From a virus: DNA of 28,909 bases. Positions 409-26,280 of the stretch are shown here, piece after piece. Where the stretch lies: the IMG/VR virus record IMGVR_UViG_3300034101_003382, positions 1 through 28,909 of that record. One strand, written 5' to 3'. The position numbers and the translations under genes are program-made. Each line of letters starts with the position of its first letter. The stretch's first letter is position 1. The notes beneath the pieces are model-generated. The model made no database searches, was not told the DNA's origin, and saw only the letters and a list, made by a program, of their open reading frames with translations.

Positions 409-1033
409 GATTTTATCAGATTTTCGGATATTATCAGCAGCCCACAATGGTTGTAAATTAGTATAATGAAAACAGTTCTTTTGGATCTGTTAAATCAAAA
501 CTAGCACAAGGAATTATATGATCTATATGCCAACCATTTTTACCATAGTTTTCCCAATTCATACCTTGTTGAAATAATTTAGATAAATATTCTTTTAAAA
601 ATTCAATGCTGCATCCAATCAACTCCTTTGTAGTTCCATGTTTTTTATTGTTTTTTATCGCTTGGTTTAATCTGCTTCTGAGACTGCCTTTTATCCTATA
701 TAATATATCATTTTGTCTTTTGTTCTTTTCGTATTTTCTTGAGTGTTTTCGATAAACTTTAGAACTTTTATATGTTAAGATTTGCTTTTTATTTTTTTCA
801 TAATATTTTTGATTATATTCCAAAATTTTATCTTTGTTTGAGTCCCTATATTCTATCATATAGTCTTTTCTTTTTGATAAAATCTCTGACTTGTTTTTTT
901 GAAAATGCTGCTTATGATATAGAGCAACACAACTCTTACATCTTGCGTCCAGCCCAAATGCTCCACCTTTTTTCTTATAAAAAGATGTAAATAGCTTTTT
1001 CTTTTTACATAAACGACATACTTTTTTAGACAT
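403..1033 (-). pseudogene. HNH homing-type endonuclease, frameshifted near the C-terminus
   Basis: Start ATG at 1033 is chosen for its good ribosome binding site (AAGGAG) and because the protein then begins MSKKVCRLCKKKKL like its paralogues; upstream in-frame codons are spurious. An N-terminal CxxC zinc ribbon is followed by a long Lys-rich helical linker and the HNH core GWHIDHIIPCASFDL. The open frame stops at 458-460 after KELFSLY. Moving one base restores CFHYTNLQPLWAADNIRKS and a stop at 403-405, matching the two intact paralogues at 9893 and 11868. The likely lesion is loss of one TG from TGTG, giving ctgttt for ctgtgtttt. The lost part holds the conserved Asn of the HNH fold, so the truncated product is probably inactive unless the shift is bypassed or is a sequencing error. 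A class 2 promoter motif lies just upstream (minus strand, 1052-1062). Confidence 0.8.
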
Positions 1034-1044
1034 TTTTAACTCCT

Positions 1045-1062
1045 TATTTATGGATACACCAA
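1045..1062 (-). promoter_or_regulatory. Class 2 promoter motif (TTGGTGTATCC) for the HNH pseudogene
   Basis: Read on the minus strand this is TTGGTGTATCCATAAATA, directly followed by AAGGAG and the HNH start. It is nearly the same as the plus-strand motif before the intact HNH gene at 9893 (TTAGTGTATCCTAAATATAAGGAG). No -35 box is seen. Confidence 0.5.
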
Positions 1063-1115
1063 TTTTCAAGAATTCACACAATTTCCTACTATCGGAGAAG
1101 CATTGGGCTGGAATA

Positions 1116-1295
1116 ATGAAACACTTTAATATCACTGCTCAAGTTTATAAAAATAACGATCTTTCAAAACAAAATTTATTAATAAATGAAGTTCATGATG
1201 GTTTAACTTCTGAAGAAGCGTTAGATCATTTTAAACTTCATTTTCCTTCAATCGAGTATTCTTTAGTAAGAATTTTATCTACAGAAGAGATATGA
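1116..1295 (+). CDS. Small hypothetical protein (59 aa)
   Basis: The product MKHFNITAQVYKNNDLSK...SLVRILSTEEI is not recognised. It looks like a compact alpha/beta protein without membrane segment or signal. An in-frame ATG at 1050 would add 22 residues, but that stretch overlaps the minus-strand HNH promoter and has no ribosome binding site, so ATG 1116 is preferred, although the nearest GGAGAAG (1094) is rather distant. The gene ends in an ATGA overlap with the glycosyltransferase-like gene at 1292, so the two are probably translated together. Confidence 0.6.
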   Translation: MKHFNITAQVYKNNDLSKQNLLINEVHDGLTSEEALDHFKLHFPSIEYSLVRILSTEEI

Positions 1296-6083: not shown

Positions 6084-6314
6084 ATGAACTATAGATCAAA
6101 ACACCTAACAGCATATACGTTTCTGATTGGAATGTTGCTTTTTTCAGTAGGAGCAAATATTCTATTCTATAACAGAATAATGATTTTGCAAGACTTTATA
6201 ATAGGTTCTAATACTTGGATGACTGTTGATCAGTTTGATTATATACAGGAAGAAATTCAAAGATTAGCAAATGAAAAGTATCAAATAGTTCCATCAAATA
6301 AATATATAAACTAG
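6084..6314 (+). CDS. Small membrane protein (76 aa)
   Basis: Starts directly after the previous stop with GAGGAA at 6075-6080. One clear transmembrane helix (about residues 10-28, AYTFLIGMLLFSVGANILF) precedes a soluble helical C-terminus (QFDYIQEEIQRLANEKYQ). No family recognised. The G of its TAG stop is the first base of the tmRNA acceptor stem, so the mRNA and tmRNA overlap by one base and must be separated by processing if cotranscribed. Confidence 0.65.
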   Translation: MNYRSKHLTAYTFLIGMLLFSVGANILFYNRIMILQDFIIGSNTWMTVDQFDYIQEEIQRLANEKYQIVPSNKYIN

Positions 6315-6667
6315 GGCGAGTAAAGGTTTCGACTACATATCGGAGATTATATTAGCAAGTAGTGGTTGGTGGACAGGCCACTTTAAAAGTCTACCAAATG
6401 CTGTAACTGGCACAAATCAGTTAGCACTTGCTGCCTAACAAAAAAGGGCAGTAACAGACTGCGATACCGAATGAGGGTAGGTATCAAAAGTCTGTCGTTA
6501 AATCCCTCTGCACTTACAATGTCCAACGGGTTGTAGGTTAAGAGCAGTTGGAAAGATAGAATGAATCTTGTTTGTTCTATAATTCTATCTCACTATGAAC
6601 AAAATAAACTTGTAGAAAATATTTTTGATGCTATGATAGGACAGGGGTTCGACTCCCCTCTCGTCCA
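6314..6667 (+). ncRNA. ssrA: tmRNA (one-piece transfer-messenger RNA)
   Basis: The 5' end GGGCGAG (6314-6320) pairs with CTCGTCC (6660-6666); discriminator A6667. The hallmark GGTTTCGACT follows the 5' acceptor strand, and the T arm AGGGG-TTCGACT-CCCCT is perfect (6643-6659). Pseudoknot 1 is visible: GTGG 6362-6365 with CCAC 6378-6381, interleaved with GGTGGAC 6368-6374 and GTCTACC 6389-6395. After the typical TAACT, the tag reading frame starts at GGC 6409 and reads GTNQLALAA, stop TAA 6436-6438, with the canonical LALAA degradation end. CAGACT/AGTCTG further down marks a second pseudoknot region. tmRNA rescues stalled ribosomes with SmpB and tags the nascent chain; no smpB is in this window. 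CCA is not encoded. Confidence 0.93.
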
Positions 6668-9892: not shown

Positions 9893-10501
9893 ATGAAAAA
9901 ATATAAGATATGTGGTAAATGTAATAAAAAACATAAAGAATGGACAAAGGGAACACAATGTAAAAATTGTAGATCTCTATGTAAAAAACAATGTTATCAA
10001 AAAAATAAACCTAAATATTTAGATAGAATCAATAAATATTATCAAGATAATAAAGAAGAAAAATTAAATTACGCTAAACAATATAGAAATAAAAATAAAA
10101 ATAAATGTAGTGAATATTTTTCTATTAATGCTGAAAAAATCTATAAGCAAAGAGCAAAAAGAGAAAAACAAAAAAGAAATACGGATATAGGTTTTAGAAT
10201 ACAATCAAATCTACGCAAAAGATTGTATAGGGCAATAACTACAAATAAAAAGTATCAATCAACATTAGAATATTTAGGTTGTTCGATAGAAGAATTAAAA
10301 ATACACTTAGAAAAACAATTTAAAAAAGGAATGACTTGGAATAACTATGGAAAATGGCATATAGATCATATTAAACCTTGTGCTAGTTTTGATCTGAGTT
10401 TAGAAACTGAACAAAAAATATGTTTTCATTACACCAATCTACAGCCCTTATGGGCTATAGAGAATATTAAAAAAAGTAATAAGATTTCCACCAACATTTA
10501 A
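9893..10501 (+). CDS. HNH homing-type endonuclease
   Basis: A 202-residue protein: N-terminal zinc finger (CGKC, later CKNC; residues about 7-27), a long Lys/Asn/Tyr-rich helical linker (about 28-110) that probably contacts DNA, and an HNH core starting near residue 155 (WHIDHIKPCASFDL, then CFHYTNLQPLW). Intact, and closely similar to the HNH proteins at 11868 and 403-1033. It sits between ligase and a nucleotidyltransferase-fold gene, with its own class 2 promoter and AAGGAG site. Such free-standing enzymes cut cognate sites in related phages and spread by recombination. Very A-rich coding. Confidence 0.9.
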   Translation: MKKYKICGKCNKKHKEWTKGTQCKNCRSLCKKQCYQKNKPKYLDRINKYYQDNKEEKLNYAKQYRNKNKNKCSEYFSINAEKIYKQRAKREKQKRNTDIGFRIQSNLRKRLYRAITTNKKYQSTLEYLGCSIEELKIHLEKQFKKGMTWNNYGKWHIDHIKPCASFDLSLETEQKICFHYTNLQPLWAIENIKKSNKISTNI

Positions 10502-11867: not shown

Positions 11868-12488
11868 ATGAAACAATGTGTGAGATGTAAAAAAAATAAA
11901 AAATTGACCCAGTTTCATAAACAAAAGGCTTCTGCTGATGGACACAAATCATGGTGTAAAATCTGCACTCAAGAATATGGGAAAAAACATAAACAAAAAA
12001 ATAGAAAGAAAATTAAAAAACAACAAAAAGAATATAAAATCAAAAATAAAAATAATTTGAATGAATATAATAAACAATGGAGAAAAGATAATCCAGATAA
12101 AGTTTTTGAAATCCGTAAAAAATATAGAGAAAAATATAGAGATAAAATTAATAAAAGACGACGACAGAAACGTAAAGCAAATATTAATTTTAAATTAAGA
12201 ACTATCATTAGTAATCGTATTAGAATGGCTTTATCTAGAGGCTCAAAAAATAGTACAGCTTATGAATTAACAGGTTGCTCTTGGGAACATCTGAAACTAT
12301 ACTTAGAAAGCCGATTCACAGTCGGTATGAGTTGGGATAATTTTGGAGAATGGCATATAGACCACATCAAACCTTGTTGTAGTTTTGATCTTACTGATTT
12401 AGAGCAACAAAAATTATGTTTTCACTATACGAACCTACAACCGCTATGGGCTATTGATAATCTAAAGAAGTCTGGAAAATTATTATGA
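11868..12488 (+). CDS. HNH homing-type endonuclease
   Basis: A 206-residue paralogue of the HNH protein at 9893. N-terminal zinc finger CVRCKKNKK...CKIC (about residues 4-35), a Lys-rich helical linker (about 40-110), and an intact HNH core from about residue 162 (WHIDHIKPCCSFDL, CFHYTNLQPLW). It sits right after the HhH-GPD gene with its own class 2 promoter, and its stop overlaps the next start (ATGA). The start MKQCVRCKKNKK follows a weak TTAGGA site. Confidence 0.9.
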   Translation: MKQCVRCKKNKKLTQFHKQKASADGHKSWCKICTQEYGKKHKQKNRKKIKKQQKEYKIKNKNNLNEYNKQWRKDNPDKVFEIRKKYREKYRDKINKRRRQKRKANINFKLRTIISNRIRMALSRGSKNSTAYELTGCSWEHLKLYLESRFTVGMSWDNFGEWHIDHIKPCCSFDLTDLEQQKLCFHYTNLQPLWAIDNLKKSGKLL

Positions 12489-14091: not shown

Positions 14092-14373
14092 ATGGCTGAA
14101 GTTAATACGGTTGAGAAGCAGACTAGGATTCGTTGCTCTGATGAGGCTTTTCTTGAGGCAGTGTTTTCCAGCAAGACTTATGCTGAGATTGCTGCCAAGA
14201 CAGGGCAAAAGGTCGCTAGTACAGCGGCTCGTTATGCTCGTACTAAGGCCGCTCTGGCTAAGAAGGGCATTGAACTGCCTGAGATGGAACGTGCGAAGCC
14301 AACCAAGACGGTTGATAATGTTGAGGCTATGGCAGAGGTTGTTCGTCGCCTCAAGGCCCATGCTAACGGTTGA
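14092..14373 (+). CDS. Small putative HTH-containing phage protein (93 aa)
   Basis: Start ATG 14092 follows TTGGAGG. The product MAEVNTVEKQTRIRCSDEAF... contains a helix-turn-helix-like segment TYAEIAAKTGQKVASTAARYARTKAALAKKG (about residues 29-59) and an Ala-rich basic C-terminal helix. It resembles small sigma-like or recombinase-type HTH modules but no family is certain. Codons are richer in G+C than the neighbours (gct, gcc, aag, cgt). Strong promoter, long structured leader and codon choice point to high early expression. Confidence 0.7.
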   Translation: MAEVNTVEKQTRIRCSDEAFLEAVFSSKTYAEIAAKTGQKVASTAARYARTKAALAKKGIELPEMERAKPTKTVDNVEAMAEVVRRLKAHANG

Positions 14374-14470: not shown

Positions 14471-14748
14471 GGGGCTTTGGCGAAACAGGCAGACGCAAGG
14501 GACTTATACAATTTGAGTGCATAAGGAGAAATCTTTATAGTAGAACCTGTCAAATTCGGTGAAGGCTTAACTGCTAATACCGAGCCAAGCATAGAAATAT
14601 GAAGGTGTAGAGACTTGACGGCAGGAACCTAAAATGAAAATTATGGTTAAGATAAAGTCCAGACTACAAACCGAAAGGGTAGTGAAAACTATAGTAGTAA
14701 GAAAATCCCTCGGAGAAATCCATGTGGGTTCGATTCCCACAAGCCCCA
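14471..14748 (+). tRNA. tRNA-Leu(UAA) interrupted by a group I intron
   Basis: 5' exon 14471-14505 and 3' exon 14702-14748. Acceptor GGGGCTT (14471-14477) pairs perfectly with AAGCCCC (14741-14747); discriminator A. Anticodon stem AGGGA (14498-14502) pairs with TCCCT (14706-14710); joined loop CTTAAAA gives anticodon TAA for Leu UUA codons. The variable arm (CGGAGAAATCCATG region) is class II as expected for Leu, and the T arm GTGGG-TTCGATT-CCCAC is perfect. The intron splits the anticodon after U34, exactly where the cyanobacterial and plastid trnL(UAA) intron sits. CCA is not encoded. Confidence 0.93.
14506..14701 (+). ncRNA. Group I intron (IC3-like) in tRNA-Leu(UAA)
   Basis: 196 bases from ATACAATTTGAGTGC to ...TAGTAAG. 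The 5' splice site follows U14505; exon ACTT pairs with intron GAGT (P1) giving the required U-G at the splice site, and the intron ends in G. The R-like element GTAGAGACTTGACGGC and S-like element AAGATAAAGTCC form P7 (GACT/AGTC), and P4-P6 pairing segments are visible around AATTCGG/CCGAG. No open reading frame inside. Self-splicing through an exogenous guanosine is expected from the family. Confidence 0.9.
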
Positions 14749-15207
14749 CTATTTATTTTTTGCACGATAGTTGTCAGTTAAAGCATGACAGTTAGGACAA
14801 AGTAATTCAAGATTGGATAAAGTATTATTTAAATTATTACCATCTTTATGATGTAATTCAATAGGAATAAGTTGATTAAGCCAAGTTTTTTGTTTACAAT
14901 TGTTGCATTTATGTTCAAAAATTTGTTCTTTAATTAGTCTCTTTTTAAGTTTCCAACTTTGTATAGTTTGTTTATTAGAAAGATAATCTTGAATAGATCT
15001 TTTTGGACCTAATTTTTGACCTTTATTCCAACCCTGTAAAGTAAAATGAGAAATATCAATATTATACAATTTAATATGTTTCTTTAGACAGGCATAGTTC
15101 CCTCCTGCTGGAGCGATATTCATTTTTTGTAGACATTGACGATAACTAAAAGATTCTGAACAAATTTTAGATAAATTTTCTTTTGTATAATGATGTTTAT
15201 TATTCAT
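14749..15207 (-). CDS. HNH endonuclease converging on tRNA-Leu
   Basis: 152 residues from ATG 15207 (MNNKHHYTKENL), chosen for the AGAGGAG site just upstream. The C-terminal HNH domain has CNNC zinc Cys, IELHHKDGNNLNNTLSNLELLCPNCHALTDNYRAKN: the HHKDG catalytic motif, Asn-rich loop and second CPNC. This is a different HNH subfamily from the three Lys-rich ones. The N-terminal part looks like a DNA-recognition helix region (SFSYRQCLQKM). Its stop codon is adjacent to the tRNA discriminator base, a position fitting a homing enzyme that cuts the intron-bearing tRNA locus of intron-free relatives. Own class 2 promoter on the minus strand. Confidence 0.9.
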   Translation of the reverse strand: MNNKHHYTKENLSKICSESFSYRQCLQKMNIAPAGGNYACLKKHIKLYNIDISHFTLQGWNKGQKLGPKRSIQDYLSNKQTIQSWKLKKRLIKEQIFEHKCNNCKQKTWLNQLIPIELHHKDGNNLNNTLSNLELLCPNCHALTDNYRAKNK

Positions 15208-15218
15208 AATCGCTCCTC

Positions 15219-15246
15219 TTGACATTCAAAAAGCAAACGCTAAAAT
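15219..15246 (+). promoter_or_regulatory. Sigma70-type promoter of gene 15285, no CCGATA
   Basis: TTGACA (15219-15224), 16 bases, TAAAAT (15241-15246). Unlike the other class 1 promoters its spacer lacks the CCGATA element. It overlaps the oppositely oriented class 2 motif of the HNH gene. Confidence 0.7.
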
Positions 15247-15257
15247 AGATATACACC
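15241..15257 (-). promoter_or_regulatory. Class 2 promoter motif for HNH gene 14749-15207
   Basis: On the minus strand TTTTGGTGTATATCTATTTTA lies about 35 bases before the HNH start. It places the HNH gene under the same motif class as the other homing endonucleases. Confidence 0.45.
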
Positions 15258-15284
15258 AAAACCTTTTAAGAACAAGGAAACCAA

Positions 15285-15503
15285 ATGAGCAAAAATACTC
15301 TGGAACTATACAAGATTGGTAGCAAGGTTAAGTTGGCTGAAGATGTTTACGGAACTATCATTGGAATTCATATTACTGGTGATAATAATATTACTTATGA
15401 ATGTGGATGGTGGAATAGTCGTTCATATGCTACAGAAAATTTTTCGTCCAACGAAATCGAAGTTACAGTAGCAGAAAAAACTAAGATTGGTTTCTTTTCA
15501 TGA
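15285..15503 (+). CDS. Small beta-rich hypothetical protein (72 aa)
   Basis: MSKNTLELYKIGSKVKLAEDVYGTIIGIHITGDNNITYECGWWNSRSYATENF reads like a small SH3/KOW-like barrel (YKIGSKVKL..DVYGTI.GI, then YECGWW). Many phages carry such proteins without known function. AAGGAA before the start, a good promoter upstream, and an ATGA overlap with the next gene. Confidence 0.7.
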   Translation: MSKNTLELYKIGSKVKLAEDVYGTIIGIHITGDNNITYECGWWNSRSYATENFSSNEIEVTVAEKTKIGFFS

Positions 15504-25278: not shown

Positions 25279-26280
25279 ATGGCAAAAGGTTTAGATGTAG
25301 GTACAAGTTATATTGTTTTATCACAAGAAAATAATCAAGGTATACAATATAAAGATTTTAGAGACGCATTTTACATTATAAAACCTACAACACCAGTAGC
25401 CACTAAAATGATAGAAAAAGGACTAAATGGAAAAGTTTTTATTAAAGATAGTGATGGTTCATTTATTATCTTAGGAAAAGATGCTATAGAAAAAGCTGTA
25501 GAAAGAAACGACACGGCCAAAAGACCAATGTATAGAGGCGTCGTTTCTGCTAAAGAAAAAGATGCTAAAAGAATACTCGCATTTATACTCAAAGAAGTAG
25601 TTGGACAGGCATCTGAACCAAATGAAAAAATAGTATTCTGCGTACCAGCACAACCAGTAGATCAAGAAGACGATGATTTTGATGTTGGATATCATGAAGA
25701 TATAGTAAAAACTATATTATCAGAATGTGGCTATGAAGCCAGAGCAATAAATGAAGCAGAAGCGTTGTGCTATTCTGAACTAGAGCAAGATGATTATACA
25801 GGAATAGGTGTTAGTTGTGGCGCTGGTATGACAAATGTGTGTGTAATGTTAAATGGTGAGCCTACAGTGGTTTTTAGCACAACAAAGTCTGGTGATTGGA
25901 TTGATAGAATGAGTGCTGTTGCAACCGGAGAGCCAGATAGTGTTGTTCAAGCAGAAAAAGAGGGAGGGGTATTTAAGATTGGCGAACATAATGATAATCC
26001 TATTTTGTCTGCGGTATCATCTTATTATGAAAGACTTATAGATTATACAACAAAAAATCTAAGCCTAGCTTTACATAATCATAAAGCATTACCAAAATTT
26101 AAAAATCCATTAACAATAGTCATAGCTGGTGGCACATCTCTAGCGAATGGCTATATCGAAGAGTTTGCTAAAAAAATGAACGAAAATAATTTTCCAATTA
26201 AGATTAAAGAAGTCAGACACGCTATTGATCCATTACATTCAGTTAGCAAAGGATGCTTAATAGCATCTAAAATATTATGA
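25279..26280 (+). CDS. Actin/Hsp70-fold ATPase (ParM/MreB-like)
   Basis: 333 residues with all motifs of the actin-like ATPase fold: phosphate 1 LDVGTSY (5-11), connect 1 INEAEALCYSE (157-167), phosphate 2 GIGVSCGAGMTNV (174-186) and adenosine motif VIAGGTSLANGY (281-292). Length fits ParM/MreB and is shorter than DnaK, with no substrate-binding domain. Such phage proteins can form filaments that position DNA or virions, but a chaperone-like role is also possible. Overlaps the next gene by ATGA. The class 2 promoter at 24956 probably drives the unit. Confidence 0.85.
   Translation: MAKGLDVGTSYIVLSQENNQGIQYKDFRDAFYIIKPTTPVATKMIEKGLNGKVFIKDSDGSFIILGKDAIEKAVERNDTAKRPMYRGVVSAKEKDAKRILAFILKEVVGQASEPNEKIVFCVPAQPVDQEDDDFDVGYHEDIVKTILSECGYEARAINEAEALCYSELEQDDYTGIGVSCGAGMTNVCVMLNGEPTVVFSTTKSGDWIDRMSAVATGEPDSVVQAEKEGGVFKIGEHNDNPILSAVSSYYERLIDYTTKNLSLALHNHKALPKFKNPLTIVIAGGTSLANGYIEEFAKKMNENNFPIKIKEVRHAIDPLHSVSKGCLIASKIL

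Follow-up and report, generated by a model that had tools for sequence, protein, structure and literature searches.

The window analysed here is the whole of IMG/VR virus record IMGVR_UViG_3300034101_003382, 28,909 bases long. At 14471-14748 it holds a gene for a transfer RNA (tRNA), tRNA-Leu(UAA), that is split in the anticodon by a group I intron, and directly behind it, on the opposite strand, lies a gene for a predicted HNH homing endonuclease. These two elements are described below, together with the alleles found at the same place in other phages and a mechanism by which the intron and the enzyme may cooperate.

The split tRNA gene and its intron

The 5' exon of the tRNA (14471-14505, plus strand) ends with U34 in GGGACUU, while the 3' exon (14702-14748, plus strand) begins with AAAAUCCCU and carries A73, CCA not being encoded. 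Run without its intron option, ARAGORN reports nothing at 14471-14748. With the option it returns tRNA-Leu(UAA) with a 196-nucleotide (nt) intron after U34, and the joined exons form a full cloverleaf with a long variable arm, the anticodon UAA and A73. A sequence-only reading of the window had put a tRNA-Leu(UAA) split in this way at 14471-14748, and ARAGORN and the Rfam model RF00028 find these coordinates to be exact. It had also recognised the position as that of the cyanobacterial and plastid trnL intron, and a homologous intron is indeed found there at the same place, after U34. At many related loci ARAGORN labels the intron-bearing tRNA Phe, Lys or Tyr; these labels were rejected as misread tRNA-Leu(UAA) on the basis of the ACTT-intron-AAAATCC junctions.

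The intron itself (14506-14701, plus strand) contains no open reading frame (ORF). The covariance search proposed by the sequence-only reading as a check shows that 14496-14683 matches the group I model RF00028 with 57.8 bits (gathering cut-off 50, E 2e-12). The P1 helix with a U-G pair, the terminal G and the P7 elements that it had described are all present: the exon stretch ACUU (14502-14505) pairs with GAGU on the intron side (14515-14518, plus strand) with U-G at the splice site, the final intron base is G14701, and P7 is formed by GACUU (14612-14616, plus strand) and AAGUC (14655-14659, plus strand). In an alignment of 25 diverse phage introns from the same site 99% of the P7 cells are paired, including a U-A/A-U swap, and for the whole structure of 47 pairs (P2-P9 and the P7 pseudoknot) the figure is 98.0%. 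Both-sided changes are found at 28 of these pairs, none of 500 shuffles does as well, and the folding of the precursor tRNA beats that of shuffled sequences (z -2.97). A chance match is thus ruled out by the covariance model, the covariation and the homologs. The intron probably belongs to subgroup IC3, as judged by homology to the cyanobacterial trnL introns, which occupy the same position and fit one profile, alignment and tree together with the phage introns.

Intron-bearing tRNAs had been taken to be rare in phages, a view that does not hold. A pattern scan of IMG/VR for the intron end followed by the 3' exon, with AAAATCC required, matched at least 119 stretches, the majority being tRNA-Leu(UAA) introns and a few chance matches. 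The same-position intron is also present in the GenBank phages LR756501 (735 kb) and Agrobacterium phage Atu_ph07, and in LR756511 the tRNA-Leu(UAA) intron has an HNH reading frame inside it. When bacterial genomes were scanned in the same way, the matches listed included cyanobacteria, alpha-, beta- and gammaproteobacteria, Bacteroidota and Acidobacteriota; some of the matched contigs could be misbinned.

All these introns likely share a remote ancestor; a cyanobacterial donor is not supported by the tree or the identities. An intron-bearing trnL taken up from a cyanobacterium or a plastid-like source would account for the shared insertion point and the homologous intron, and because the approximately unbiased (AU) test gives p 0.098 for the window cluster joined with the cyanobacteria, such a clade is formally unrejected. 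However, in a careful tree of 83 introns the cyanobacterial ones form a clade of their own (100/100), while the window intron groups with phages (96/96), in starred sets that hold 13 and 22 introns, all from phages; a quick tree with wider sampling gives the same picture. Several phages have introns up to 100% identical to that of the window, whereas the best alphaproteobacterial intron reaches 72.0% and the best cyanobacterial one 64.8%; the exons show no greater identity to cyanobacteria (71.9%) than to proteobacteria (75.8%). Acquisition from a cyanobacterial source is hence regarded as very improbable.

The histories of intron and exons are discordant. The loci L033 and L114 share 96.4% identity with the window in the intron and 68.6% in the tRNA, whereas L045 shares 98.8% in the tRNA and 87.9% in the intron. 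It therefore appears that these introns pass from one phage tRNA gene to another, even where the genes have diverged. In many phages the same intron is found in UAA tRNAs of 73-76 nt that have no long variable arm of the tRNA-Leu type and keep A73 (L012, L033, L035, L041, L119 and others). In L298 the anticodon loop of a tRNA-Met(CAU) at 1665-1938 is interrupted by a group I intron of 200 nt, and the gene adjoins both an HNH gene and a tRNA-Leu(UAA) that has no intron. In two Pelagibacter phages the region of the capsid gene contains introns of this type (L005:1953-2154 and L006:1954-2132, 74-88% identical over parts of the window intron), so that related introns are housed in protein genes as well as in tRNA genes.

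The antisense HNH gene and its relatives

The gene adjoining the tRNA (14749-15207, minus strand) was overlooked in the sequence-only reading, and it is this gene that gives the locus its likely mechanism. Its probable start is the ATG at 15207 behind a ribosome-binding sequence, AGAGGAG, the mechanical ORF extending to 15225, and its stop codon (14749-14751) abuts the 3' end of the tRNA. The product matches phrog_10822 (E 2.3e-39), and the gene is under purifying selection, with a ratio of nonsynonymous to synonymous substitution rates (dN/dS) of 0.09-0.21. The residues H125, H126, N138 and H147 are invariant in the protein alignment, as are the zinc residues C107, C110, C143 and C146. A structure model with a predicted local distance difference test score (pLDDT) of 84 displays a beta-beta-alpha fold (strands 123-126 and 139-142, helix 144-156). 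By its catalytic and zinc residues and its modelled fold the product is a predicted HNH homing endonuclease. Pfam gave no match for this protein, and searches against solved structures gave nothing significant, the similarity to I-HmuI covering 34 residues and also falling short of significance.

A candidate promoter for the gene, TTTTGGTGTATATCTATTTTA (15241-15263, minus strand), resembles stretches before related HNH ORFs and before an HNH-like ORF at 11868. The window contains further HNH-like frames at 458-1135 (minus strand), 9893-10501 and 11868-12488, for which Pfam gave no match and whose C-terminal parts are alike by eye; the last of them has a promoter-like motif, GGTGTATA, resembling that of the HNH gene at the tRNA. 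A role of the G1-U72 pair, present in some of the tRNAs, in supplying the HNH stop codon was considered and dropped: HNH-free loci of the lineage have U72 as well, and in the window the tRNA and the stop codon do not overlap.

Two scans for relatives of the HNH protein gave 99 nonredundant loci, 90 of them with a full-length match. Of these 90, 80 lie in or beside a tRNA-Leu(UAA), and several of the remaining ones abut, or lie at most 4 nt from, other leucine tRNAs. The arrangements vary: the HNH gene is found antisense at the 3' end of the tRNA with or without an intron, inside the intron in either orientation, and outside it in sense. A freestanding HNH gene next to an ORF-less intron in the tRNA gene, as in the window, was found at about 28 loci before deduplication. 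On the best HNH tree the intron has been gained or lost at least 20 times, and seven of these changes are forced by supported branches. In L276, where the tRNA-Leu(UAA) is split by the intron, a frameshift breaks the adjoining HNH gene, so that the intron persists with no working partner.

In four loci (L270, L283, L290 and L362) the same intron itself contains a homologous HNH gene, and both orientations are represented. Such cases would be expected if the intron had once held an HNH gene of its own and the neighbour were a relocated copy or a replacement, its adjacency a relic of homing endonuclease gene turnover; PMC10448857 raises the same alternative for collaborative loci. The low dN/dS indicates, however, that the window gene is maintained, the site pattern described below suggests ongoing activity, and turnover concerns mostly the history of the locus rather than its present function. 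As an account of the locus it seems quite unlikely.

Upstream of the tRNA lies a gene (14095-14373, plus strand) which, as found by tblastn, marks the same locus in other phages. The downstream neighbour (15285-15503, plus strand) comes directly after the tRNA in the HNH-free relatives L045 and L110, which have nearly the same tRNA with its intron; the boundaries of the HNH cassette were set there by eye, and the MAFFT alignment misplaced the start of the downstream gene. Elsewhere the window encodes rIIA, rIIB, an ATP-dependent DNA ligase, a RuvB/clamp-loader-like ATPase and a transfer-messenger RNA (6314-6667, tag GTNQLALAA). A protein encoded at 25279-26280, putatively ParM-like by our own reading, has relatives only in two huge phage genomes (32-34% identity).

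Alleles and the anticodon-stem site

Should the anticodon arm be the target of the HNH enzyme, a phage that bears it would need an interrupted or altered site. This prediction was recorded after the first loci had been seen and ahead of the second HNH scan. Among intronless tRNA-Leu(UAA) genes beside full HNH genes, the 11-mer GACTTAAAATC is kept in 8 of 33, against 104 of 118 and 92 of 110 in HNH-free intronless phage controls (p 3.5e-12 and 4.3e-10), which were picked by D-arm patterns blind to the stem. For the 13-mer stated first, GGACTTAAAATCC, the figures are 3 of 33 against 41 of 118 and 50 of 110 (p 0.004 and 8e-5). The IMG/VR and bacterial pattern scans that required AAAATCC were kept out of this test. 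The altered stems are varied (e.g., AAAACTTAAAATTTT in L265, GGCACTTAAAATGCC in L267, and GGGTCTTAAAAACCC) and mostly still paired. Of seven phylogenetically independent pairs on supported branches, typically six agree with the prediction, none opposes it and one is a tie (median p 0.031).

When the comparison is confined to loci sharing the upstream gene of the window, all four states are found: intron and HNH gene in 15, intron alone in 20, HNH gene alone in 4, and neither or a remnant in 12, with one further intron beside a partial HNH gene. The intronless tRNAs contain GGACTTAAAATCC in 0 of 4 cases with an HNH gene against 9 of 12 without a full one (p 0.019); in L311 the intact intronless site stands next to an HNH remnant of 20 codons. 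All the intron-bearing alleles, with or without the HNH gene, have the AAAATCC 3' exon, and since most intron-bearing loci came from a pattern requiring AAAATCC, the intronless contrast alone is a test. The joined exons of the window, used as an empty-site query, have no exact match in IMG/VR, and the empty alleles come from loci with other tRNA exons.

Several points weigh against homing of intron and HNH gene at this site. The same-locus comparison is the cleanest site test, though small, and the 11-mer criterion was set after the data had been seen. The controls are only partly matched, because many HNH-bearing tRNAs have unusual D arms, and when each distinct arm is counted once the contrast weakens to 6 of 27 against 30 of 44 (p 2e-4). 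An intact HNH gene and an intact intronless site occur together in L281, L345, L358, L377, L381, L382 and L387, and at a distance of 124 nt in L397. The canonical exon beside the intron may partly reflect the needs of P1/P10 and of exon pairing, and the partnership of intron and HNH gene is loose, as 20 same-locus introns adjoin no HNH gene. A Foldseek search with the HNH protein found no confident structural match. The allele pattern would fit an intron placed at the target site of the HNH enzyme, but with exceptions.

The same 20 introns would fit a neutral intron, old and inherited vertically or occasionally transferred, next to an unrelated freestanding endonuclease that came to lie there by chance. 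ORF-less introns at this site in many bacteria, and the other HNH-like genes within the window, point the same way. Chance adjacency is, however, hard to reconcile with the finding of 80 of 90 full HNH homologs at tRNA-Leu(UAA), in varied orientations and positions in and out of the intron, or with the site pattern beside the HNH genes, and this explanation is considered unlikely.

A proposed model of homing at the anticodon arm and its known counterparts

The reading that we favour, with a probability of roughly 0.7, is collaborative homing at the anticodon arm of the tRNA, in which the HNH enzyme targets intronless tRNA-Leu(UAA) genes and the intron serves as both passenger and self-protection. 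The sequences show the intron and the HNH gene, their association, the allele pattern and the discordance of intron and exons, whereas splicing, cleavage and repair transfer are inferred. The locus would be a mobile unit of two parts within a phage tRNA gene. The ORF-less intron would remove itself from the precursor tRNA, a step on which translation may depend, as the sequence-only reading had suggested, while the HNH enzyme encoded antisense beside it would recognise the uninterrupted anticodon arm, with GACTTAAAATC as the core and in the subgroup of the window probably GGACTTAAAATCC. As the intron splits the target site, its carrier would stay uncut. During co-infection the enzyme would cut the tRNA-Leu(UAA) gene of a second phage that lacks the intron, and the break, repaired on the copy of the carrier, would take up the intron, the HNH gene or both. 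Phages that have the HNH gene and no intron would escape through paired changes in the anticodon stem.

A wider version of collaborative homing is possible, although we hold it at less than even odds. Here a widespread phage HNH family, specialised on the anticodon arm of tRNA-Leu(UAA), would be both gene drive and weapon, destroying or converting the tRNA-Leu(UAA) gene of competitors and possibly also that of a host with the same arm. Carriers would be protected by an intron that removes itself or by an altered stem. The locus family would then preserve every stage of the partnership: neither element, endonuclease alone with an altered site, intron alone, the two side by side, and the endonuclease inside the intron in either orientation.

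According to a review from 2014 on group I introns in bacteria, all phage introns to date were in protein-coding genes despite the many phage tRNA genes (PMC3984707). In the literature searched, which is thin in subscription journals so that earlier reports are possible, no report of group I introns in phage tRNA genes and no case of collaborative homing at a phage tRNA was found. The word 'intron' is not used in a paper on huge phages (PMC7162821) or in that on Atu_ph07 (PMC6102473), though such genomes hold these introns, and the detection of such introns is stated to lie outside the design of tRNAscan-SE (PMC8450103); phage tRNA-Leu(UAA) genes are therefore probably undercounted. Contrary to the picture in the 2014 review, introns are common in this one phage tRNA gene. 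How introns and homing endonucleases become paired is discussed as an open question (PMC3984707; PMC10448857), and it becomes directly testable where a single genomic position offers every combination of intron and HNH gene and the predicted target is 11-13 bases long.

The intron shares its tRNA, its position after U34 and its ancestry with the cyanobacterial trnL introns, but those form a separate clade, whereas the phage introns move between divergent tRNA genes, often with HNH partners. I-Ssp6803I, a homing endonuclease of the PD-(D/E)XK nuclease family, likewise targets a tRNA gene in the anticodon region, where a group I intron lies; it differs in being intron-encoded and bacterial, and in nuclease family and tRNA. 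The family phrog_10822, which the window protein matches, is annotated as HNH endonuclease only, its target being undescribed. SegB of T4 is, as far as outlined in PMC3984707 (citing Brok-Volchanskaya et al., 2008), also a freestanding phage homing endonuclease that acts at a phage tRNA gene region during co-infection, but it is a GIY-YIG enzyme with no intron and no interrupted tRNA. Collaborative homing is known from phage protein genes, and the present locus looks like a counterpart with a tRNA anticodon and an HNH enzyme. The known case is F-CphI and the intron-bearing psbA of cyanophage S-PM2 (PMC6083498, citing Zeng et al., 2009), where the intron is reported to keep the carrier from cutting itself at the place where the uninterrupted gene would receive the insertion. 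There the target is protein-coding, the enzyme is of the Endo VII type and cleavage has been demonstrated, whereas in the window a tRNA gene would be the target of an antisense-encoded HNH enzyme, and natural alleles with mutated sites exist.
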